A stretch of 64,000 nt of DNA, from assembly GCF_002019695.1 (NCBI RefSeq), contig NZ_KV917376.1, forward strand, positions 2,534,670 through 2,598,669, written 5' to 3'. The position numbers were made by a program, and so were the translations under genes. The stretch comes from Evansella clarkii (GTDB lineage Bacteria > Bacillota > Bacilli > Bacillales > Salisediminibacteriaceae). Position 1 is the stretch's first letter; each line of letters starts with the position of its first letter. Shown here one piece after another: positions 6,636 to 62,817 of the stretch. A model generated the notes under the pieces. It had not been told where the DNA came from. It was given only the letters and a program-made list of their open reading frames with translations, and made no database searches.

Positions 6636-7676
6636 TTGAATACAGGCATCGAAAAAATACTGACAGAAGCAATTCACCTGCAGGCTTCGGACATCCATTT
6701 GACAATTGGGAAGCCGCCTGTTCTTCGTATTCATGGAGATTTGGTTACTGTGAGTGACGAGACGCTGACACCAGATGCTATGCAGGGGCTTGTTGCCGAA
6801 GTTCTCCCGCCAATGATGAGGGAGCACCTGGAAACTGCCCGGGAAGCCGATTTTTCCTACGGTATCCCTGGGGTGGCAAGGTTCCGGTTAAATGCTTATT
6901 ATCAGCGTTCACATCTTAGTATGGCTATCAGGGTGATTCCTACGGATATCCCTGACCTTGAGGAACTGCAAATGCCAGCTGTTTTAAGGAAAATAGCGGA
7001 GAAAAAACAAGGGCTTGTACTCGTAACCGGACCAACAGGAAGCGGAAAATCCACGACACAGGCGGCGATGATTAAACATATTAACGAGCATATGAAAAAG
7101 CATATCGTTACTTTGGAAGACCCTATTGAATATCTCCATAAACATAACAACTCGATTATTGATCAGCGGGAAGTGGGCTTTGACACGAAATCATTTGCCG
7201 CAGGATTAAGGGCAGCCCTCAGACAGGACCCTGACGTTATCTTAGTCGGGGAAATGAGAGATCTGGAGACGATATCCACAGCTATCACTGCTGCTGAAAC
7301 CGGGCATCTTGTTTTAGGAACACTTCATACGTCAAGTGCAGCGGCAACTATTAACCGGATTGTGGACGTGTTCGATTCCACCCAGCAGCCGCAAATAAGG
7401 GTGCAGCTCGCTTCTGTATTAGCAGCGATAATCTCCCAGCGGCTGATGCCAGCAGCAGATCGTCATGGACGAGTCGCTGCAACGGAAGTTTTAATTAATA
7501 ATTCAGCTGTTGCGAACATGATTCGCAGTGATAAAGTGCATCAAATCGAAAGTATTCTGCAGACAAGCAGAGCGGACGGCATGCACACACTGGAGATGAG
7601 TATCGGCCATCTGCTTAAGCTGGGAAAAATATCGCAAGATGAAGCACAGCCTTACATCAGGGAGAGAAATTTATAA
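6636..7676 (+). CDS. pilT: type IV pilus retraction ATPase PilT
   Basis: About 346 residues from TTG 6636, which has AGGTG at a proper distance; a GTG at 6627, directly abutting the pilB stop, is the alternative. It has the N-terminal LQASDIHLT motif, Walker A GPTGSGKST, Walker B DPDVILVGEMRD and the His-box region typical of PilT. PilT depolymerises the pilus, allowing twitching or DNA uptake. Presence of a dedicated retraction motor distinguishes this locus from the B. subtilis comG pseudopilus system, which has none. Confidence 0.96.
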   Translation: MNTGIEKILTEAIHLQASDIHLTIGKPPVLRIHGDLVTVSDETLTPDAMQGLVAEVLPPMMREHLETAREADFSYGIPGVARFRLNAYYQRSHLSMAIRVIPTDIPDLEELQMPAVLRKIAEKKQGLVLVTGPTGSGKSTTQAAMIKHINEHMKKHIVTLEDPIEYLHKHNNSIIDQREVGFDTKSFAAGLRAALRQDPDVILVGEMRDLETISTAITAAETGHLVLGTLHTSSAAATINRIVDVFDSTQQPQIRVQLASVLAAIISQRLMPAADRHGRVAATEVLINNSAVANMIRSDKVHQIESILQTSRADGMHTLEMSIGHLLKLGKISQDEAQPYIRERNL

Positions 7677-8881
7677 TGCCTCATTACCGTTATCAGGGCC
7701 GGACGAAAACCGGTATAAAAAAAGAAGGTACTATAAACGGAAAATCACGAAAGCATGCCATTGAAAAACTCCGTGGACAGGGAGTTGCATTAGCCTCAAT
7801 CACTGAGGTCCAGCCCTCTTTTTTTCAAAAGGAGCTGACGATTGGCAACCCGGTGAAGCTCCAGGATTTTGTCCTGTTTCTTCGCCAGTTCGCCACATTA
7901 CTGCAGTCTGGCGTATCAATCGTTAATGCAACTTCCATACTTGCGAGACAGACAAGCAGCAAACCGCTGATGCGGGCACTTGAATCTATCGAAGAGGAAC
8001 TGGTCACTGGCAAACCGCTGTCAGAAGCAGCAGCGAAGCAGAAAAAAATCTTCCCGCCAATTTTTATTAATATGGTTCAGGCTGGGGAGGCTTCGGGAAC
8101 GCTTGATGAGTCTCTGGATCAGCTTGCCTCCCAGTTTGAGAAACAGCACGAGACGAAGCAGAAAGTAAAGTCCGCGATGGCTTATCCTGTCATTGTCGGT
8201 ATTGTCGCTATCGCAGTAGTTATTTTTCTTTTAACGTCAGTAGTGCCAACTTTCGCATCTATGCTTACTGATTTAGGAGGTGAGCTGCCCGCAATCACCG
8301 TATTTGTATTAGGTGCCAGCGAGGTTGTTGCGACGTTATGGTGGCTTCTCCTCCTCTTAGGTTTACTGGCTGCGTTCGGAATATGGGCGCTCAGGCAGAC
8401 TCCTGAAACAAAATATCATCTTGATTACTTCTTGCTGAAAATGCCTGTTTTTGGTCCTTTGCTTCAGAAAGCCGCATTAGCAAGAATGACAAGAACATTA
8501 AGTTCTTTATTCACCAGTTCTGTGCCGATTCTCCAGTCAGTGCAAATAACAGAACGGGTTGTTGGAAACGAAGTCATTAGCAGGACACTGAAGGAGTCGA
8601 GAGATGCGCTGGAAAAAGGGGAGCGGCTGACAGCACCCATGGAAAAGCACTGGGTATTTCCTCCCCTGGTGGTGCAAATGATCAGTATTGGCGAAGAAAC
8701 TGGTTCCCTTGATCAAATGCTCAGCAAAGTAGCGAACTTCTATGAGAAAGAAGTAGAGTACGCCACAGACCGGCTCAAAGCACTTATTGAACCATTGATG
8801 ATAATTTTGCTGGCAGGTGTAGTAGGAGTGATCGTTATTTCTATCATTGTGCCAATGTTCCAGATTTACTCGGAAATTTAA
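7676..8881 (+). CDS. pilC: type IV pilus inner-membrane platform protein PilC
   Basis: 401 residues, ATG overlapping the pilT stop (TAATG). Two GspF domains (about 60-190 and 265-395), each containing a QLASQFEK/KVANFYEK-type motif before a membrane segment, and three predicted membrane helices. PilC couples the motors to pilin addition in the membrane. The close overlap indicates one transcript with pilB and pilT. Confidence 0.96.
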   Translation: MPHYRYQGRTKTGIKKEGTINGKSRKHAIEKLRGQGVALASITEVQPSFFQKELTIGNPVKLQDFVLFLRQFATLLQSGVSIVNATSILARQTSSKPLMRALESIEEELVTGKPLSEAAAKQKKIFPPIFINMVQAGEASGTLDESLDQLASQFEKQHETKQKVKSAMAYPVIVGIVAIAVVIFLLTSVVPTFASMLTDLGGELPAITVFVLGASEVVATLWWLLLLLGLLAAFGIWALRQTPETKYHLDYFLLKMPVFGPLLQKAALARMTRTLSSLFTSSVPILQSVQITERVVGNEVISRTLKESRDALEKGERLTAPMEKHWVFPPLVVQMISIGEETGSLDQMLSKVANFYEKEVEYATDRLKALIEPLMIILLAGVVGVIVISIIVPMFQIYSEI

Positions 8882-8969
8882 AGTGAACTTGCAAATTGGC
8901 GAGCTTAATTACTAAAGGTCTTTGGCAAAGTTTCTCACGTCCTGTGGAAATCAGGGGCGCAGTTGAACA

Positions 8970-9056
8970 ATGAAAAGGAAGCAATAAGGAGGCAATGAAA
9001 AACGGTCTTTATTTGGGCACTTGGACCGTTCGGAGCCAGTAGTGCAACCGGCCTGA
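8970..9056 (+). promoter_or_regulatory. cyclic di-GMP-II riboswitch in the major pilin leader
   Basis: The 209-bp gap between pilC and the pilin holds, in order, CAATGA, a CGGTC...GACCG pair enclosing TTTGGGCACTTG, and AGTAGTGCAACCGGCC. This matches the core of the Clostridium class II cyclic di-GMP aptamer as I remember it (UUGGGCACUUG ... AGUAGUGCAACC with the same enclosing pair). GGCAC can pair with GTGC as the pseudoknot. The 3' edge is about 34 nt before the pilin start. No terminator follows, so control of translation or of RNA stability is likelier than attenuation. The P1 helix is not obvious. Confidence 0.85.
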
Positions 9057-9089
9057 AAATAAAATTAATAAAAAAGGGAGAGAAAGAAA

Positions 9090-9515
9090 ATGTTGAAAAA
9101 ATTTCTCAAGAACCAAAAAGGTCTGACACTCATTGAACTCCTTGTTGTCGTTGTTATTTTAGGAATTATCGCTGCGATTGCAGTGCCGAGTGTTGGTGGA
9201 ATGATTGATAACTCCAAGAAAGATGCCCATGTAGCAAACGCTCAACAGATGATTAATTCGGCAAGGCTCTATCAAACCAGTAACCCAGAAGCTACGGAAG
9301 TTACATTCAAAGATCTTTTAGACGGTGGATATATTGATAGGATGGAAGATCCTGATACGGGTGGGGCAGATTATAGTAATAACAGCAAAGTCAGCTTTGA
9401 TAAAGAGAATGGAACCTACTCTGTATACTTAAGAGGGGGAAAAAGGAGAATTGGAGCAAGTGAAGGTCTTATTCTTCAGTCTAACTTATCGAGAGATGAA
9501 GTAAAAAATAACTAA
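9090..9515 (+). CDS. pilA: major type IV prepilin (PilA/ComGC-like)
   Basis: 141 residues. The leader MLKKFLKNQKG has four lysines and is cut before LTLIELLVVVVILGIIAAIAVPS, with Glu5 present and the canonical hydrophobic helix. Mature residue 1 is Leu instead of the usual Phe. The small C-terminal domain is soluble and charged. AAAGGGAGAGAAAG precedes the ATG. Its position after pilBTC and its own long leader carrying a cyclic di-GMP-II aptamer suggest it is the abundantly made fibre subunit under second-messenger control. Confidence 0.93.
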   Translation: MLKKFLKNQKGLTLIELLVVVVILGIIAAIAVPSVGGMIDNSKKDAHVANAQQMINSARLYQTSNPEATEVTFKDLLDGGYIDRMEDPDTGGADYSNNSKVSFDKENGTYSVYLRGGKRRIGASEGLILQSNLSRDEVKNN

Positions 9516-9555
9516 TTATTAATTATTAATTAACATTCGAAAGGACCAACCTAAA

Positions 9556-10308
9556 ATGGAATTACTACTCCACATATATTTATTTATCTTCGGTGCCATT
9601 TTAGGCTCCTTCTATAATGTTGTAGGTTTAAGAGTACCGGCCGGGCAATCAATTGTCCGGCCAGGTTCTTATTGCCCGAATTGCCGGAAAAAGTTAAAAT
9701 GGAGAGAGCTTGTCCCAATTTTCTCTTTTTTCTTTCAAAAAGGACGATGTGGCGGATGCAGAACGACAATTTCTCCTATATATCCCTTTTTTGAAGCTGT
9801 AACGGGACTTCTTTTTACGATTTCACCCTTTCTGGTGGGATGGTCAAAGGAACTGCCAGTAGCTTTAGCACTGATCTCCCTGCTGGTAATTATTACTGTT
9901 TCTGATATCACTACGATGCTAATACCGAATAAAATACTGATCGTATTTCTCGGTATCTTCATCGTTCTTAGAATAATTTCACCCCTGGATCCATGGTGGA
10001 GCAGCATCCTTGGAGCTGCCACCGGATTTGGTGTGCTCCTTCTTATCGCCATCATCAGTAAAGGGGGCATGGGGGGCGGAGACATTAAGCTTTTTGGAGT
10101 GCTCGGTATTGTACTTGGCCTTCAGGGAGTGCTCCTGACATTATTTTTTGCAAGTTTAATAGGTTCTGTCGCCGGGATAACTGCAATGCTTACGAAAAAA
10201 GTAAAGAAGGGCCAGCCTGTTCCCTTTGGCCCGGCAATAGCCGCCGGATCTCTATTAGCATACTTTTTCTATCATCCATTAATAGAATGGTATATGAGTT
10301 TCTTTTAA
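9556..10308 (+). CDS. pilD: prepilin peptidase (A24 family, PilD/ComC)
   Basis: 250 residues, polytopic. The N-terminal methylase-type region has ILGSFYNVVGLRVP and two zinc-type cysteine pairs (CPNC, CGGC at about 35-75). The aspartyl protease motifs are SDITTMLIPN and GMGGGDIKLFG (GxGD type). It cleaves pilin leaders and N-methylates the new end. Its position before spoIIB is where B. subtilis has comC, so it is probably the comC orthologue. It is likely the only processing enzyme needed for the four prepilins nearby. Confidence 0.96.
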   Translation: MELLLHIYLFIFGAILGSFYNVVGLRVPAGQSIVRPGSYCPNCRKKLKWRELVPIFSFFFQKGRCGGCRTTISPIYPFFEAVTGLLFTISPFLVGWSKELPVALALISLLVIITVSDITTMLIPNKILIVFLGIFIVLRIISPLDPWWSSILGAATGFGVLLLIAIISKGGMGGGDIKLFGVLGIVLGLQGVLLTLFFASLIGSVAGITAMLTKKVKKGQPVPFGPAIAAGSLLAYFFYHPLIEWYMSFF

Positions 10309-12229: not shown

Positions 12230-13025
12230 CAGGAAATATATTTATCTGTCAGCATCTGCTGTTCTTCTGCTCATTTTCTTTGTATCTGCGTATTTTATGT
12301 TTATTGCACCGGCGGAAGGAGAGCTTGAGAGCGTTCAATCCCAGCTGGAATTTGAAGAAAATCTTCTGGAAGAAATAAGTGGGCCTGCTGCAGATACCAG
12401 ACAGTACGAAAGCCATGAGATACAGGCTTTTTTGCAAAAGGTTCCATATGCTCCCAATACGGAACACTGGCTTCTTGACCTGGAACGGGCGGAAGCTGTC
12501 TCCGAGACATTAATTACCTCATACTCATTTAGTGAAGGAGAATATGAAGGTGTAGTGTATGAGACGGCAACAGAAACAGAAGAGGTGGATGTTTCTGTTG
12601 AAGCAGAAGCTGAAGTGGAAGACGGAGATACCACAGCAGAAGCAGAGGTAGAAGCAGAAGTGGAAGTGGAAACTGAGACTGAAGAGAATCTGGTCACAGA
12701 ATCTGCAGTGCCGCCTCCTGTAAACGGGTTGAAGGCAGTGTCTGTATCTCTTGACGTAGATGCGGAAGATTATCCGGAACTTTTCCGTTTTATCGAAGAA
12801 ATTGAGAGATTCGAGAGAGTGACACATATAAACGCTGTTTCCTTTGAAGGGTATGGAGAACCTGAAACACTAAATGAAGATGAGGAACTTACATTGTCTT
12901 TTAATATTGAATTAAGCACATTCTACCTGCCTGAAATGGAGGATGAATTCCAGGATTTCTTCTTCCACCGCAACTTCGAACACCCAGTACAAAAAGTAAA
13001 CCCTCTGTGGGAACCAGGGTTTTAA
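12213..13025 (+). CDS. pilO: PilO-like pilus alignment protein
   Basis: 270 residues from ATG 12213, overlapping the end of pilN, with AGGAGCAGGA as ribosome binding site. One N-terminal membrane helix (about 8-30), a coiled-coil, then a two-part periplasm-type domain as in PilO. An inserted low-complexity stretch near residues 113-160 is made of Glu/Ala/Val alternations. The assignment rests on topology, order after pilM-pilN and domain pattern; sequence identity to known PilO is low. Confidence 0.78.
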   Translation: MITDLNRKYIYLSASAVLLLIFFVSAYFMFIAPAEGELESVQSQLEFEENLLEEISGPAADTRQYESHEIQAFLQKVPYAPNTEHWLLDLERAEAVSETLITSYSFSEGEYEGVVYETATETEEVDVSVEAEAEVEDGDTTAEAEVEAEVEVETETEENLVTESAVPPPVNGLKAVSVSLDVDAEDYPELFRFIEEIERFERVTHINAVSFEGYGEPETLNEDEELTLSFNIELSTFYLPEMEDEFQDFFFHRNFEHPVQKVNPLWEPGF

Positions 13026-13063
13026 CCTGAAAAATAAATAGGCGTTATTTGTCAAAAAACGAT

Positions 13064-13097
13064 GAGAGTTTGTGATAAGTCACAGGCTCTTTTTTTC
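13064..13097 (+). terminator. terminator after the pilus operon
   Basis: GAG...TGTG and CACA...CTC arms with an internal mismatch, followed by seven T, close the pilM-N-O transcript before spoIIB. Confidence 0.7.
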
Positions 13098-13214
13098 TGT
13101 TTTTTCTGTTAAAATAAAATTAAATACTATGTAAATTGCACTTTCCGTTCTATCATTCTAAATCCTTTAATAGACTAGTAACACGAGTCAGAGAAAGGAA
13201 GGAGTCAGGTCGAT

Positions 13215-14348
13215 ATGGAAAAAAAGAAAAACGTCTCGATCCGTCTCAATGGGAAAGAGCAAATATATACGGAGCGTGCCAGGACGCCTGGCCTTTCTGG
13301 TCAGTCCCGGGATAAAGCAGGGGAAGAAACTGCTGCGTCCAGTGAACAGAAAAATACTGAAACAGAGATCGCCGATCTGGAAACAGACCAAACAAATGTG
13401 GAAGATAAGATAATCGATTTTAATAAAAAACAAAAGGAAAAACAGGAAAGGAGCCTTCCTTTCTGGGACGATGGCAAACGTGATGCCGGGCCCCGGCTGC
13501 CTCCTTTTCAGAGAAAGAAAAAGAATTCCTCCGGAGTATCGTTTAACTTAAATTTTATATTTCATTCTGTCTTTCTGGCAATCGCGGCTGCAGTGATCAC
13601 TGGAGGAATTTTTGGATTTATTATGCTTAATATTTTTACAGGAGGGGACAATCCTTCCGATCCGGCAGCGGATGGTGGCTTATCAGTTACGACAGGCACT
13701 GCTGCTGGTGCAGTAGTGCCTGCCGGCGAGGATGGGTCCCGTTCAGTCCCTCCCCTCAATTTATATGTGATTCAGGGAGGCGCCTTTTCCCTGAAGGAAA
13801 AAGCAGAAGAGACTGCGTCAGCACTGCGGGGTGGAGATTTTCCTGCAGTCATTACGGAAAATACCGATCCGCTCTATCTGTTTATCGGAATAGGTAGCAG
13901 CAAAGAAGATGCAGAAAAATTGTCTGTCATTTATAATGAAAGGGGAACAGAAACGTATATAAAATCCTATGATATAACTGGCAGTACTGGTATCCCGGAA
14001 GAATGGGCCGGTTTTTTTGAAAAAGGAACCTCGTGGATGGAGAAAGCAGCTACTATCACAGCAAAAGATATTTCAGGTGAGGCACTGTCAAATGAGGAAG
14101 TAGCAGATATGCTTCAAGCCGGGCAGGCCTGGGAGGAGGAATTTCAGGGACTATCCGGTGAGACTGACAAACCTTATTTCCAGGAGGCCGGGGAATGGCT
14201 GAAAACAGGTGAACCTGCCCTCCGAATGTATTCATCATCGGTTTATTCTTCATCGTCAGCCTGGGAGGTGCAGGAGGCGCTGATTAAGACAATGATTGCT
14301 TATGAAAAGCTTATTCTTGCCGTAAAAAATACCGGGGAGAACCAGTGA
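13215..14348 (+). CDS. spoIIB: SpoIIB-like SPOR-domain sporulation protein
   Basis: 377 residues; AGGAAGGAG upstream. A charged cytoplasmic N terminus (about 1-115), one membrane helix (about 117-140) and an outer part with a SPOR peptidoglycan-binding domain (about 178-258, starting LNLYVIQGGAFS). In B. subtilis SpoIIB helps septal wall thinning and engulfment and its gene lies between comC and maf, the same place as here. Overall similarity is low outside SPOR, so position carries much of the weight. Confidence 0.85.
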   Translation: MEKKKNVSIRLNGKEQIYTERARTPGLSGQSRDKAGEETAASSEQKNTETEIADLETDQTNVEDKIIDFNKKQKEKQERSLPFWDDGKRDAGPRLPPFQRKKKNSSGVSFNLNFIFHSVFLAIAAAVITGGIFGFIMLNIFTGGDNPSDPAADGGLSVTTGTAAGAVVPAGEDGSRSVPPLNLYVIQGGAFSLKEKAEETASALRGGDFPAVITENTDPLYLFIGIGSSKEDAEKLSVIYNERGTETYIKSYDITGSTGIPEEWAGFFEKGTSWMEKAATITAKDISGEALSNEEVADMLQAGQAWEEEFQGLSGETDKPYFQEAGEWLKTGEPALRMYSSSVYSSSSAWEVQEALIKTMIAYEKLILAVKNTGENQ

Positions 14349-31368: not shown

Positions 31369-31405
31369 CAAGCCTTTCCGAATGAATTTCGGGAAGGCTT
31401 GTTTG
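31369..31405. terminator. bidirectional terminator
   Basis: 14-bp stem (CAAGCCTTTCCGAA against TTCGGGAAGGCTTG, one mismatch) with T-runs on either side, between the MBL gene and the repeat array. Confidence 0.85.
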
Positions 31406-31406
31406 G

Positions 31407-31547
31407 TTAATCAACGAAATTGAGTGTTTAATCAACGAAATTGAGTGTTTAATCAACGAAATGTAGAGTTTAATCAACGAAAAAGCGGGGTCAATCAACG
31501 AACCGGAATTTAACCAACAAAATATAGAGAACAATTAGTGAAATTGG
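31407..31547. repeat. 21-bp period array, motif TTAATCAACGAAAT
   Basis: TTAATC/TCAATC motifs start at 31407, 31428, 31449, 31470 and 31491, exactly 21 bp apart, and two decayed copies follow. The first two units are identical. It lies between the 3' ends of the MBL and NERD genes. The frame that stays open through it encodes ISLIKHS-type repeats but has no ribosome binding site. Confidence 0.88.
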
Positions 31548-38916: not shown

Positions 38917-39112
38917 ATTTTTTTCCAACAGTTTGCGTTTTTGAAACGTTATCTTTATGAAGAGCAACACGATCGGCCGTTTATGGTATTAATAAAACCG
39001 GCACATAATGAGATGTGTTGCCCTACAACTATTGTTGTAGATAAATTTGCAACTATAAAACGAAGTAAAAAATTTAAAACTTTTATATTGTTAATGTAAG
39101 GGGGTGATCTAA

Positions 39113-39268
39113 ATGATGTTGTTTAATCTGTTTTTTCTGACGATAACAGTGGCACGAAGAAAGCATGATGGTAAAGATATTGAAAGGGCTTATGAGTACC
39201 AGGAATCTGTTAAGCATAGTGCAGCTGTCCGCGCAAAGCAATCCGAATATCTGAATCGTCTAATGTAA
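39113..39268 (+). CDS. YrzI-family small protein, paralogue 1
   Basis: 51 residues, MMLFNLFFLTITVARRKHDG..., with GGGGGTGAT upstream. The NLFFLTITxxRRK start, an amphipathic charged middle and a YLNRLM end match the Bacillus YrzI family (probable sporulation proteins, function unknown). First of four tandem copies separated by 21-23 nt. Confidence 0.8.
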   Translation: MMLFNLFFLTITVARRKHDGKDIERAYEYQESVKHSAAVRAKQSEYLNRLM

Positions 39269-39291
39269 TGGGTGTTAAGGAGGTGGAAATT

Positions 39292-39447
39292 ATGGCGTTT
39301 AATTTGTTTTTTCTCACAATAACAGTGTACCGCAGAAAACCCGATCGAAAAGAAGTTGAGCGGGCCCATGTATATCAGGAATCTGTAAAACACAGGGAGG
39401 CAGTTCGTGCAAGGCAGGCTAATTATTTGAATCGAATAATAATGTAG
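39292..39447 (+). CDS. YrzI-family small protein, paralogue 2
   Basis: 51 residues, MAFNLFFLTITVYRRKPDR..., AAGGAGGTG upstream. Shares YQESVKHREAVRARQ with paralogue 3, so these two are the most alike. Probably co-transcribed with its neighbours. Confidence 0.8.
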   Translation: MAFNLFFLTITVYRRKPDRKEVERAHVYQESVKHREAVRARQANYLNRIIM

Positions 39448-39469
39448 TGACTTAAAGGAGGTGAAAATT

Positions 39470-39622
39470 ATGGTTTTTAATTTGTTTATTCTCACGATTA
39501 CAGTGACCAGAAGAAAATCCGATGGTAAAGATGTTGAGGAAGCTCGCCTGTACCAGGAATCTGTAAAACACAGAGAGGCAGTTCGTACAAGGCAGGCTGA
39601 ATATTTAAATCGTATGATGTAA
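39470..39622 (+). CDS. YrzI-family small protein, paralogue 3
   Basis: 50 residues, MVFNLFILTITVTRRKSDG..., AAAGGAGGTG upstream; ends YLNRMM. Confidence 0.8.
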   Translation: MVFNLFILTITVTRRKSDGKDVEEARLYQESVKHREAVRTRQAEYLNRMM

Positions 39623-39645
39623 TCGTTTTACAGGAGGTGATAAGT

Positions 39646-39798
39646 ATGATGTTTAATCTGTTTTTTCTAACTGTGACAATCACCCGCAGAAAATACAACG
39701 GAGCAGAAATTGAACGGGCCCACAGGCATGAAGCGTCAAATAAGCACCGTGAGGCGATCCGTGCAAAGCAAGCTGAATATATGAATCGAATGATGTAA
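39646..39798 (+). CDS. YrzI-family small protein, paralogue 4
   Basis: 50 residues, MMFNLFFLTVTITRRKYNG..., CAGGAGGTGAT upstream; ends YMNRMM. The middle (RHEASNKHREAI) differs most from the other three. Confidence 0.8.
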   Translation: MMFNLFFLTVTITRRKYNGAEIERAHRHEASNKHREAIRAKQAEYMNRMM

Positions 39799-46516: not shown

Positions 46517-46539
46517 TGATATATCAGCGAATAATGCAA

Positions 46540-46613
46540 TCATTAAGGGATGCGAGGAACACATATCTTCATCTGGGCACTTGGATATGTAGGAGCAATT
46601 AGTGCAACCGGCC
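46540..46613 (+). promoter_or_regulatory. cyclic di-GMP-II riboswitch upstream of the GGDEF-EAL gene
   Basis: ACATATC and GATATGT enclose TTCATCTGGGCACTTG, followed by TTAGTGCAACCGG. The same order and nearly the same loop bases as the pilin-leader element at 8970 and the Clostridium class II aptamer. The last aptamer bases CCGGCC are also the left arm of the terminator at 46608, so ligand binding and termination are in competition. Confidence 0.85.
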
Positions 46614-46637
46614 ATTTATTCAGGCCGGCTTTTTTTA
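46608..46637 (+). terminator. riboswitch expression-platform terminator
   Basis: CCGGCC and GGCCGG with a 9-base loop, then CTTTTTTT. The left arm overlaps the aptamer's 3' end. Confidence 0.85.
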
Positions 46638-53849: not shown

Positions 53850-54300
53850 ACTTTTTTGTTCGATTTTCGCTTCAGACGGACGCGTTCTGCAGGTGCGGCT
53901 TCAACTAATTTTTTATGACGGCTGAATGCCGTCAAAAATGGATTTTCAGCTCGCACTTTTCCCGCAGGAACGAGCATCTTCTTCACCGCAAATGCATCGA
54001 GTTGTCTCGACGGATATTCTACGGAGCTAAGCTTGCAAAACTCTTTTTGCGACGAGTAACCGCAGGAGCAAAACTCTTTTTGCGACGAGTAACCGCAGGA
54101 GCAAACTCTTTTTTGCGACGAGTAACCGCAGGAGCAAAACTCTTTTTGCGACGAGTAACCGCAGGAGCAAAACTCTTTTTGCGACGAGTAACCGCAGGAG
54201 CAGAGGAAGAGACAGTCACCGCCGTCTTCCGTTACAATCGAAAAGTAATGTTCGTCTTTTTTTATGCCAAGTCTATATATGAAATTCATTCAATTAAGCC
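53850..54300 (-). repeat. coding-like repeat element with 33-bp tandem array, copy A
   Basis: On the minus strand one frame stays open for 149 codons (54289 to 53840): it begins MNFIYRLGIKKDEHYFS, passes through SCGYSSQKEFC repeats and ends with ARAENPFLTAFS, KLVEAAPAERVRLKRKSN. The ends match the element at 57556 in the opposite orientation. No convincing ribosome binding site is present. The whole element looks like a member of a repeat family that keeps an open frame. Confidence 0.65.
54035..54199. repeat. five-unit 33-bp tandem repeat
   Basis: GCAAAACTC starts at 54035, 54068, 54101, 54134 and 54167, exactly 33 bp apart; units are identical but for one A/T slip in the third. Because 33 is divisible by three, both strands remain open (LFLRRVTAGAK on plus, SCGYSSQKEFC on minus). 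There is no spacer sequence, so it is not a CRISPR. Confidence 0.95.
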
Positions 54301-56979: not shown

Positions 56980-57432
56980 TTATAAATCTTCAGGCGGGTA
57001 TGGCGTATCAGTTGGATCAGCATAAATGGAATAAGTTTCATCAATATATTCTCTGATTTCAGTTAAAGGCTTACCGTCTTCTTTCATGTCTTGCACATCC
57101 AGTGCAATATCTATACAGATTCCTCAGCCGGCGCCATGAGGGTCGTATACGATTGTTTCACTGTCAGAATGCTCATTATTTATAAAGCAGTCTTTGACGT
57201 TTCGATGGTTGAATGGATCTACATAACAATTACAGTAGCATGGGATGTATTCTAAATATTCTCCGTTATCAACTGCATATTTATAAGCATCGACAGCGCC
57301 CGGGTGATTTGCTTCCATCACATAATCGGGAAAATTATATCCATCTGTTTCTGCTGAGTCTTCCGTACTGCACCCGGCAGCCAGCAGCAGAAACAGACTC
57401 AAAAAAACAAGGCATGCGAAAAGTTTTTGCAT
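56980..57432 (-). CDS. PCYCGC-motif lipoprotein with in-frame UGA: candidate selenoprotein
   Basis: Signal peptide with lipobox LAAGC (Cys21), then PCYCNC (the family PCYCGC motif, about residues 64-69) and DCFIN. Relatives then have HGxxCGxC; here the frame reads HGAG-UGA-GIC at codon 103 (57124-57126). It continues IDIALDVQDMKEDGKPLTEIREYIDETYSIYADPTDTP (in pieces as in the family) to a TAA at 56980. Reading UGA as Sec gives 150 residues and a UxxC redox motif. Sixteen nt after UGA a hairpin TTGCAC-TGGAT-GTGCAA (57091-57107) has a G in loop position 2, as bacterial SECIS elements do. GAGGAGG precedes the ATG. The alternative is a point-mutated pseudogene. Confidence 0.8.
57091..57107 (-). 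promoter_or_regulatory. candidate bacterial SECIS hairpin
   Basis: Minus-strand RNA: 6-bp upper stem TTGCAC/GTGCAA with loop TGGAT. The stem starts 16 nt and the loop 22 nt after the UGA, inside the 16-37 nt UGA-to-loop window I recall for bacterial SECIS models. Confidence 0.6.
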
Positions 57433-57908: not shown

Positions 57909-58784
57909 TTGAGGGAGCTGGAGGTCGAGATTTTAAGAAGTTTTACTAGCCTGCAAAATCCCGTACTTGATTATTTTGCATGGTTTCTGACTTTTTTAGG
58001 TAATGAGGAATTTTATTTCATTATTCTTCCTTTTGTTTACTGGTGTATTTCTAAAGGATTCGGTATCAGGCTTTTGTATGTATTTATTATTTCGGTATAT
58101 ATTAATTCCTTTATAAAAGTACTTACTGCAGTAACTCGTCCAATTAATATTGAAGGTGTGAATTCATTGTTTATCGACTCTGCGGAAGTAGGGTCTCACT
58201 ATCCTCATGACAGTTTCCCAAGCGGGCACGCCCAAGGATCTGCTACGCTCTGGGGATTCATCGCCTACAAAGTCAACAGACGAAATGTGTGGCTGGCCCT
58301 GGGGTTGCTTGTTTTGTTAATTTCTTTAGCACGGCTGTACACCGGAGTGCACTGGCCTCTTGATATTATAGTGGGCATTGCTATAGCTGTAATCATTATC
58401 ACAGTTTATCACTTTGTTGTAAAAGGGCTAAGCAGGCTGGAGGATATTTGGAAAATCGCTCTCGCTGTAATTATACCTGTCATTATGATTCTTTTGTTTC
58501 CACACCCTGAAGGTTATTCGTACGGCGGATTCCTGCTCGGTGCGGGGCTTGGTTACTTTCTGGAGAAAAAATATGTCTCAATGAAAATTCCCTTTTCATG
58601 GGGACGCAAAATCACCGCTTATATTATTGGAGCCGCCGGACTTTTTGCCTTGCAGGCTGGCCTGAAGCTGGTGCTGCCGGAAGCAGATATCTTCAGCGCT
58701 GTCCGTTATGCAGTAATGGGCATCTGGGGGATATGGCTAGCTCCTTACTTGTTCGTGAAAACTGGCCTTTATAAGCGCAGCTGA
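57909..58784 (+). CDS. PAP2-family membrane phosphatase
   Basis: 291 residues from TTG (GAAGGGGAG upstream). Polytopic with the three phosphatase motifs KVLTAVTRP, FPSGHAQGS and SLARLYTGVHWPLDI. Such enzymes remove phosphate from phosphatidic acid or undecaprenyl pyrophosphate at the outer membrane face. The extra C-terminal helices are typical of the larger PAP2 subgroup. Confidence 0.92.
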   Translation: MRELEVEILRSFTSLQNPVLDYFAWFLTFLGNEEFYFIILPFVYWCISKGFGIRLLYVFIISVYINSFIKVLTAVTRPINIEGVNSLFIDSAEVGSHYPHDSFPSGHAQGSATLWGFIAYKVNRRNVWLALGLLVLLISLARLYTGVHWPLDIIVGIAIAVIIITVYHFVVKGLSRLEDIWKIALAVIIPVIMILLFPHPEGYSYGGFLLGAGLGYFLEKKYVSMKIPFSWGRKITAYIIGAAGLFALQAGLKLVLPEADIFSAVRYAVMGIWGIWLAPYLFVKTGLYKRS

Positions 58785-59544: not shown

Positions 59545-60057
59545 TTATGCCCCTTCGCCGTGGAACTCTTCGTCATTATATCTCTCCCCTAGTTCCTCGC
59601 CTGTTCCAATAATGTATGGGTGAGTGCCAAGTATGTTTCCATCCTCATCGAAAAAGACATATGTTGGGGAAACAGAAACACCGTAATGATTGGCAAGGCT
59701 TCTGTCCAGATCGACGCCCCATAAATGCTCTGCTGTGTATTCATTAGTGAATTTATCCAGTATCTCTTTTTCCCTTCCGTAAAATACAATAGTTATAACT
59801 TCGATCTCATCCTGATTCCTTACAAACTCCTGAATAAACGGCATGGAATAGCTGCAGCATTCGCATGGGACGGCTACGAACTGCAGAATGGTTTTCTTCT
59901 GTCCGATGAATTCGTCAAGCTGAATCGGTTCATTACCATCAATACGTTCTACTATAGTAAGATCTCCCGGGTCGCCGGCAAAGAAATAAGAATAAGCAGT
60001 ATATCCCATACCGGCAGCAATGAAAATTATTAATAGTATACCAATTTTATTTGCCAT
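59545..60057 (-). CDS. membrane-anchored redoxin (ResA/TlpA-like)
   Basis: 170 residues; GGGGGGAAAAAGG upstream. N-terminal membrane anchor (5-25), then thioredoxin/AhpC fold with QFVAVPCECCSYSMPF: active Cys in PCECC, an odd CxCC arrangement rather than CxxC. The VSVSPTYVFFDEDGNILG segment holds the cis-Pro. With CcdA it probably reduces an extracytoplasmic partner, possibly the PCYCGC lipoprotein nearby (speculative). Confidence 0.87.
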   Translation of the reverse strand: MANKIGILLIIFIAAGMGYTAYSYFFAGDPGDLTIVERIDGNEPIQLDEFIGQKKTILQFVAVPCECCSYSMPFIQEFVRNQDEIEVITIVFYGREKEILDKFTNEYTAEHLWGVDLDRSLANHYGVSVSPTYVFFDEDGNILGTHPYIIGTGEELGERYNDEEFHGEGA

Positions 60058-60169
60058 CCTTTTTCCCCCCTCAAAAGTTCAGGAATTATTCATAATGAAT
60101 TTACTCCTTACCCCTTATAATCATATTAGACAGCTACTATTATCATAACTAAGCGAATGGGGGATGCAG

Positions 60170-60607
60170 ATGAAAAATATCGTCTATTTATTGACAATTT
60201 TATTTATGATTACAGCTGCCGCAGCTGGATGCAGCAGCGTGGGTGCTCTGGGGAATACGGATATTCAGCTGGAAAATGCAGGGGAAACGTATCAGACGAA
60301 AGAGTTTATTACTTTTGAGGTTAATCTGCAGGACAAGGATGGGGAAGCAGTTTCTCCTGAGAGAGTGTATCTCTATATGAATATGGAAAGGATGCACCAT
60401 CCCATGGAAGGTACAATGAAAGAAACGGAACCTGGAAATTTTGTGATTAATCTTCCACTTGCCATGGAAGGGGAATGGTATGCAATTGTCACCATTTCAG
60501 AAGGGGAGAAAGAAGTGGAAGAACGGTTTGAGGTTTTCGCAGAAGGTGAAATGGAACCTGAACTGCTTAAAGGGTATAATGCAGATGAAGCAGAAAACGG
60601 AGATTAA
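60170..60607 (+). CDS. YtkA-like domain lipoprotein
   Basis: 145 residues from ATG 60170, with GGGGGATG upstream (an ATG at 60164 overlaps that site). Lipobox AAAGC, then an immunoglobulin-like domain (about 35-130) with ITFEVNLQDKDGEAVSPERVYLYMNMERMHHPMEG and GEWYAIVTISEGE as in YtkA/FixH-like proteins. The Met/His-rich segment could bind copper, as proposed for some relatives. Confidence 0.83.
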   Translation: MKNIVYLLTILFMITAAAAGCSSVGALGNTDIQLENAGETYQTKEFITFEVNLQDKDGEAVSPERVYLYMNMERMHHPMEGTMKETEPGNFVINLPLAMEGEWYAIVTISEGEKEVEERFEVFAEGEMEPELLKGYNADEAENGD

Positions 60608-62200: not shown

Positions 62201-62234
62201 ACAGAATTACTAAAGTGCTATAAGGGAGGAGTTT

Positions 62235-62740
62235 TCTGGACAAATCCCATGTCAAAAAGCAAAATTTGTCCAGAAACGCAGGCTATCTGGACAAATTAAC
62301 TGAGGTTGGGACAAATTTGTCCAGAAAAAACGATTTGCAGGACAAATCTCAGTAAAGGAGCGAAGATTTGTCCAGAGTAACTTACTTATATTTACAATTA
62401 TAACTATTAAAGGAATCTTTCTGGACAAATCCCATGTCCAAAAGCAAAATTTGTCCAGAAACGCAGGTTATCTGGACAAATTAACTGAGGTTGGGACAAA
62501 TTTGTCCAGAAAAAACGATTTGCAGGACAAATCTCAGTAAAGGAGCGAAGATTTGTCCAGAGTAACTTACTGATATTTACAATTATAACTATTAAAGGAA
62601 TCTTTCTGGACAAATCCCATGTCAAAAAGCAAAATTTGTCCAGAAACGCAGGTTATCTGGACAAATTAACTGAGGTTGGGATAAATTTGTCCAGAAAAAA
62701 AGATTTGCAGGACAAATCTCAGTAAAAGAACGAAGATTTA
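62235..62740. repeat. three tandem copies of a 185-bp unit with TCTGGACAAA/TTTGTCCAGA motifs
   Basis: The units start at 62235, 62420 and 62605, 185 bp apart, and differ at only a few positions; the third decays after about 130 bp. Each carries TCTGGACAAA twice, its complement TTTGTCCAGA three times and shorter GGACAAAT variants. No ribosome binding site or gene. The 656-bp gap to the EamA gene is almost all repeat. Confidence 0.93.
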
Positions 62741-62817
62741 TCCCGCTTGGACTTAATATATTCACAAAATTAACATAGAGCAATTAAATCTTAATACCTT
62801 CCGTTCCGAACTAATTT

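Follow-up and report, generated by a model that had tools for sequence, protein, structure and literature searches.

A PCYCGC-family lipoprotein gene of Evansella clarkii with an in-frame UGA very probably read as selenocysteine

We find that the window—the whole 64-kb stretch of Evansella clarkii DNA analysed here, from a genome of 5.48 Mb—encodes a lipoprotein of the PF13798 (PCYCGC) family whose codon 103 is a UGA, very probably read as selenocysteine (Sec). We give this reading a probability of about 0.93, a figure that covers the decoding and the family assignment and leaves aside any role with metals. The original prediction had proposed Sec at this codon; the Sec machinery of the host genome, the Cys/UGA pairs found among homologues and a covarying hairpin all favour it.

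The frame and its UGA codon

Read on the minus strand from 57432 to 56980, the frame consists of an AGGAGG, an ATG, 102 codons, the TGA, 47 codons and a TAA; re-reading it confirms that the TGA at 57124-57126 is the sole interruption, as had been claimed. The match to PF13798, obtained with C substituted for U, reaches 99.7 bits for a cut-off of 25 and spans the TGA; the proposal of a PCYCGC lipoprotein is supported. Along the 150-aa product the motifs succeed one another in the order LAAGC lipobox, C-Y-C-N-C, DCF and HGAG-U-G-I-C. The six mature Cys/Sec columns of CxCxC, DC and [CU]xxC (Cys 65, 67, 69 and 82, Sec 103, Cys 106) are invariant in 41/41 aligned rows, and His 76 is also invariant; the announced UxxC redox motif has its Sec in one of these invariant Cys/Sec columns. 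The structure predicted for the Sec protein (pLDDT 92.4) is made of helices, with no strand of three residues or more, and its comparison with 41 PDB chains gave no clear structural match.

Table 1. Features of the Sec gene and of its neighbours, in window coordinates
Feature	Position	Strand	Basis
PCYCGC-family lipoprotein gene, UGA predicted to be read as Sec, 150 aa	56980..57432	minus	stop TAA 56980-56982; PF13798 E 1.9e-28, residues 35-146
In-frame TGA, codon 103, invariant Cys/Sec column	57124..57126	minus	column UGA 35, Cys 45 (80 distinct homologous sites)
SECIS-like hairpin, stem TTGCAC/GTGCAA 6 bp, loop TGGAT	57091..57107	minus	conserved in UGA homologues, covariation
Redox-type motif U-G-I-C, residues 103-106	57115..57126	minus	frame reading and alignment
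C-Y-C-N-C motif, residues 65-69	57226..57240	minus	three Cys invariant, 41/41 aligned rows
Signal peptide, lipobox LAAGC, Cys 21	57370..57432	minus	lipobox Cys in 40/41 rows; signal peptide judged by eye
PAP2 phosphatase, between ccdA and the Sec gene	57909..58784	plus	Pfam PAP2 E 1.8e-19
CcdA/DsbD-TM-like electron carrier, 230 aa	58850..59542	minus	Pfam DsbD_TM E 3e-15; conserved neighbour
ResA-like redoxin, 170 aa, N-terminal hydrophobic stretch (by eye)	59545..60057	minus	Pfam Redoxin E 4.4e-9
YtkA-like lipoprotein, divergent from the redoxin, co-conserved	60164..60607	plus	Pfam YtkA E 1.2e-5, 26.3 bits vs 25.9

The part of the frame beyond the UGA behaves as coding sequence. Past the UGA, the 48 codons (counting the stop) differ from those of the nearest relative, G005, by 7 silent changes and 1 replacement; the 102 codons that precede it differ by 17 silent changes and 16 replacements. 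In 11/11 pairs a smaller fraction of codons is replaced downstream of the UGA than upstream, where the fast-changing signal peptide and linker lie. No further stop is met past the TGA, as the original prediction had stated.

Homologues, hairpin and selenocysteine machinery

In the GTDB family of the host, the PCYCGC gene was found in 10 of 35 genomes, at 11 loci, ten with TGA and one with TGC. The latter is in E. caseinilytica (genome G002, whose proteins are those of the E. caseinilytica record, as those of G006 are of the Evansella sp. AB-P1 record), and provides within the same genus one of the Cys/UGA pairs that the original prediction had suggested looking for. In an even sample of 299 Bacillales genomes PF13798 is present in 163, and 27 genomes, across ten GTDB families, bear a UGA form. 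When distinct sites are defined by the 75 nt from the Sec/Cys codon, 80 are counted, 35 with UGA and 45 with Cys. Two loci of the order and one of Thermomicrobium roseum were added after this scoring, bringing the UGA loci to 38 distinct ones, 37 of them in the order of the window. The 35 scored UGA sites comprise 15 window-like ones (HGxxUGIC..LDVQ or R) and 20 others, namely 19 with MGxGUxxC..IAREA and a single HGATUQIC (locus L128); all 35 frames were read and are open on both sides of the UGA. Some genomes have two copies: one Cys and one Sec in G050 (loci L130 and L050), two Sec in each of G183, G291 and G004. The two copies of G183, L127 and L128, are of different lineages, and one stands just upstream of ars-type genes.

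In T. roseum the gene is on plasmid NC_011961.1 (L199 4848-5303, i.e. 573004-573459) and its PCYCGC match continues past the UGA, whereas the RefSeq CDS TRD_RS14940 (WP_012642643.1) stops at this UGA, which aligns with the Sec codon. TRD_RS14940 is probably a selenoprotein gene whose annotation has been cut short.

Four changes of the Sec/Cys label, all forced by well supported branches, are required in a tree built from 77 rows out of the 80 (33 with Sec and 44 with Cys; 114 columns kept, midpoint root). It displays two large Sec groups, the lone Sec row L128, and the Cys row of E. caseinilytica nested within the Sec group of the window; this Cys form is best read, from its place in the tree, as a change from Sec to Cys. 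The deep forks are uncertain because of the small number of columns, the midpoint root, and the long branches flagged for L128 and for the Atribacterota row L086.

The hairpin was confirmed as it had been described: 16 nt past the TGA, TTGCAC (57107-57102) and GTGCAA (57096-57091) form a stem of 6 bp around the 5-nt loop TGGAT (57101-57097), whose second position is G. Four or more Watson-Crick pairs enclosing a 5-nt loop, at an offset that varies by no more than one nucleotide, are present at 35/35 UGA sites (four pairs at 3 sites, five at 15, six at 16, seven at 1) and at 0/45 Cys sites, where the longest stem has three pairs. Compensatory changes are seen in both UGA sets. In the window-like set 90/90 cells are paired, with two-sided changes in 2 of the 6 pairs (6 cells); in five rows the 5' arm changes Ala to Val (GCA to GTA) and this accompanies a silent change from GTG to GTA on the 3' arm. 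In the second set 100/100 cells are paired, with two-sided changes in 2 of the 5 pairs (3 cells). Slid registers, taken as a control, gave 16.7-65.6% and 21-53% of paired cells respectively. The hairpin of T. roseum, CATCACG-CGTGA-CGTGATG (7 bp), has the loop typical of the second clade, CGTGA, on a stem of different sequence, and the Cys gene of E. caseinilytica keeps a weakened hairpin of four pairs, counting G-U. This signal comes from the comparison of related genes and is weak for any single gene: taken alone, the hairpin of the window is unremarkable (z -1.76; 12/200 shuffles fold equally well), and a synonymous-codon null gives P 0.012 for the window and 0.003-0.08 per gene.

The host genome encodes what the decoding of Sec would need. 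The tRNA-Sec (62.2 bits, above cut-off; ARAGORN agrees, tRNA-SeC(tca)), selB (363.6 bits for a cut-off of 242), selD (412.7 bits, with its own in-frame TGA) and selA (544.3 bits), whose presence had been proposed as a check, all lie inside 6.3 kb. As tRNA-Sec passes the cut-off in 5/14 control genomes and selB in 2/14, selB is the better marker. It is above cut-off in 137/299 genomes of the Bacillales sample and in 8/9 genomes of Evansella, the exception being G004, 76% complete. Sec decoding is therefore common in this group, and the statement that Sec use is uncommon in Bacillaceae is not supported. Complete selB (E <= 1e-70) is present in 26 of the 27 UGA genomes of the sample; in the 27th the selB frame runs off a contig of 4,787 bases. 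Among the UGA genomes checked first selB was present in 25/25 (hypergeometric 9e-10, relatedness ignored). G004, which is outside the sample, has two UGA loci and yielded no selB above cut-off; its incomplete assembly may explain this absence.

Within the region of the machinery (L010), selD at 12317-13363 (G000 C1 3118418-3119347) has its in-frame UGA in the context KAG-U-GCKIGP. Transposase/integrase-like fragments, named by eye, adjoin tRNA-Sec and selB at 7337-9600, and repeat-like frames were seen by eye behind selA and selB.

These data can be set against other readings of the codon. The UGA could be an ordinary or regulated stop, giving a product of 102 aa and leaving a downstream frame that is residual or rarely read through. 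The standard annotation does end such a gene at the UGA, as RefSeq does in Thermomicrobium, and the 102-aa part would contain the CYCNC motif and Cys 82. Against this stand the fewer replacements per codon after the UGA in all 11 pairs (with the fast signal peptide in the upstream part), the invariance of [CU]xxC in the 41 rows, the hairpin present at every UGA site scored and at no Cys site, and the presence of selB, in part for one of them, in the 27 sampled UGA genomes; we consider a stop very improbable. Decoding as Cys or Trp by a near-cognate or misacylated tRNA is compatible, for Cys, with the residue that homologues have at this site. But the genome encodes a dedicated tRNA-Sec with SelA, SelB and SelD, and 9 of the 45 non-overlapping window ORFs of at least 150 aa end in TGA, which is thus a working stop; such decoding appears even less credible. 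Finally, a single in-frame stop is just what a pseudogene or a sequencing error at 57124-57126 would produce. The same TGA recurs at 38 distinct loci in many assemblies, so that an error is hardly plausible, and the open frames of the relatives and the SECIS-like covariation speak against a decaying gene; this explanation is close to negligible.

Gene neighbourhood and possible function

The original prediction had placed CcdA and a redoxin beside the gene. Both were found there, in the minus-strand order redoxin, ccdA, Sec gene, with the PAP2 gene on the plus strand between the last two. The PAP2 gene is not thought to be part of the system, and it is absent from this place in Salipaludibacillus (L077), where redoxin, ccdA and Sec gene follow head to tail. 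The redoxin of the window scores 44.9 bits with the NCBIfam ResA model, below its cut-off of 170, and its best PDB match is YkuV (1.4e-8), for 1.5e-6 with ResA. At L134 (in G005), L077, L078, L079 (= L137), L081 and L135, the Sec gene has the redoxin, CcdA and the divergent YtkA-like gene as conserved neighbours. The same order as in the window, ResA (269.7 bits), a CcdA-like gene and a UGA PCYCGC gene, is found again in the second clade at L126; the CcdA of this locus has no Pfam match at 1e-10 and only below-cut-off matches to DsbD-related NCBIfam models, and shares 34% identity with that of the window. Unlike several Sec relatives, the 8.5-kb locus of the E. caseinilytica Cys form (L080 / L026) gave no match to CcdA or a redoxin; it keeps the PAP2 gene.

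Genes for metals and metalloids are found near a number of the relatives; names such as ACR3 or ArsC are our interpretation of Pfam matches. Directly downstream of the UGA gene and on the same strand are a CsoR-type regulator and a heavy-metal P-type ATPase at L122 and L120, and an ArsR-type regulator, an SBF/ACR3-type transporter and an LMW-phosphatase/ArsC-type gene at L128. At L084, ArsR-, SBF/ACR3- and ArsC-type genes, mostly on the opposite strand, come with ArsD. A P-type ATPase and an ArsR-type regulator occur at L118 and L126, with Nramp also at L118; zinc ABC genes lie near L120-L123 and L131, CopD and a multicopper oxidase near L119, and SCO1 near L127. No metal-gene match was found near the UGA loci L124, L125, L129, L130, L132, L133 and L136, nor in the 12 kb around the gene of the window.

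We compared 26 test windows with 40 control regions of the same genomes, using 23 query proteins from these loci. A metal query taken from a different locus matched in 9/26 test windows and 1/40 controls (Fisher 0.0006), and CcdA in 7/26, six of them in the lineage of the window, and 0/40 (0.0008). This test is exploratory, since the queries were picked after viewing the loci, several loci are related, one is a Cys form (L080), two overlap (L119), and some test windows are shorter than the 12-kb controls. On plasmids, 17 records had a homologue, of which seven, hand-picked for variety, were viewed; among the six annotated ones, five have a full-length CDS and one is the UGA gene of T. roseum. 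Metal genes lie within 4-5 kb of four of these six loci (P-type ATPase, ArsR/SmtB, CDF, multicopper oxidase, copper-binding protein) and near none of the other two.

From the machinery and the covariation, we propose that SelB and tRNA-Sec, recruited by the in-frame hairpin downstream, would insert Sec at residue 103. The mature protein, judging by its lipobox, would sit as a lipoprotein on the outside of the membrane, where CxCxC, Cys 82, His 76 and UxxC could form a soft-metal site and/or a selenenylsulfide couple in a small domain predicted to be all-helical. The recurrent neighbours suggest that U-G-I-C is most likely kept reduced by a route in which CcdA would move electrons across the membrane to the ResA-like redoxin. 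As to what the protein does, its likeliest task, at just under an even chance on these sequence data, would be to bind extracellular ions of soft metals or metalloids (Cu, As, Cd/Zn) and/or to handle their redox state.

A general function also has to be considered, in which the protein, fed by CcdA/ResA, would act as a thiol-disulfide reductase outside the cytoplasm or in the repair of oxidative damage, the metal genes being nearby only through a shared thiol-stress response. CcdA with its ResA-like partner, present in seven of the 26 test windows and found in that order once more at L126 of the second clade, points this way, as do the redox nature of UxxC and the lack of a metal transporter near the gene of the window. 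On the other hand, the predicted all-helical fold would not be thioredoxin-like, the CsoR/ATPase and ArsR/SBF/ACR3-type/ArsC-type genes of L122, L120 and L128 follow the UGA gene directly on its strand, and four of six annotated plasmid loci have metal genes close by. We see in this general thiol function the main alternative, at somewhat less than even odds.

Going further with metal handling, we put forward tentatively, and with more doubt than confidence, that PCYCGC-Sec proteins might be an under-annotated class of surface selenoproteins, present in at least ten families of the order and in Thermomicrobium. Outside the cell they would trap soft metals and metalloids or reduce them, have their selenol/thiol groups recharged by a dedicated ResA-like/CcdA relay, and provide the homeostasis of copper, arsenic and cadmium with a selenium-based arm; in this single family, Sec would have been gained or lost several times within one order.

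Relation to known proteins

A selenoprotein of this family has already been described. PF13798 includes the "CYCXC family protein (hypothetical protein OS_HP4)", which appears as one entry, with UxxC, in a table excerpted from PMC13188914; the same motif is given for OS_HP4/CYCXC in an excerpt of PMC9312934, and the reviews cite for it Zhang & Gladyshev 2007, on the Olavius delta-1 symbiont. OS_HP4/CYCXC (NF041379) and the protein of the window share the Pfam family and Sec in UxxC, the UxxC of OS_HP4 probably corresponding, to judge by spacing, to the pair at residues 103-106. All 41 members of our alignment A4 match NF041379 at E <= 0.001; the window protein scores 67.6 bits (E 7.6e-19), under the curated cut-off of 90, so that it is related to this equivalog yet not filed as such. 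It differs from OS_HP4 in being a Gram-positive lipoprotein with CcdA/ResA and, at its relatives, metal-gene neighbours.

With Cys PCYCGC lipoproteins such as AOT13_14730 of Parageobacillus thermoglucosidasius, the window protein shares the domain, the lipobox and the conserved Cys set; these forms have Cys where it has UGA, as at our 45 Cys sites (AOT13_14730 is outside this set). According to an excerpt of PMC13068155, no function can be confidently assigned to a lipoprotein of this type. In 2006 three selenoprotein families were listed for Bacillales (PMC1794560, in the part available), and the excerpts of PMC12013277 and PMC5029168 do not name the PCYCGC family. Among the CC0, CC BY and CC BY-SA papers of PubMed Central, as represented by excerpts, we found none dealing with Bacillales selenoproteins of the PCYCGC family or with a metal role for the family. 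The new leads are the breadth of the Sec form within the order, its three lineages, the recurrent ResA-like/CcdA partnership and the frequent metal or arsenic neighbours.

The CcdA-ResA/TlpA systems of extracytoplasmic reduction, whose clients are apocytochrome c and spore proteins, have in common with the present locus a CcdA-like carrier and a ResA-like redoxin; here, by contrast, the adjacent likely client would be a Sec lipoprotein.

An annotation that stops at the Sec codon, as in T. roseum, the one annotated UGA case viewed, and a score below the cut-off make such proteins easily missed, in an order where selB is carried by 137 of 299 sampled genomes. With natural Sec/Cys pairs, including the two forms present together in G050, the benefit of Sec can be measured, and a domain without assigned function gains a testable connection between selenium and the handling of metals.

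Elsewhere in the window, Rfam RF01786, the class II cyclic di-GMP riboswitch, has two matches, at 8979-9062 (74.4 bits) and at 46539-46622 (65 bits). Tandem arrays occur at 54035-54202 (33-bp x5.1), 62233-62743 (185-bp x2.8), 39111-39668 (176-bp x3.2) and 31405-31502 (42-bp x2.3).
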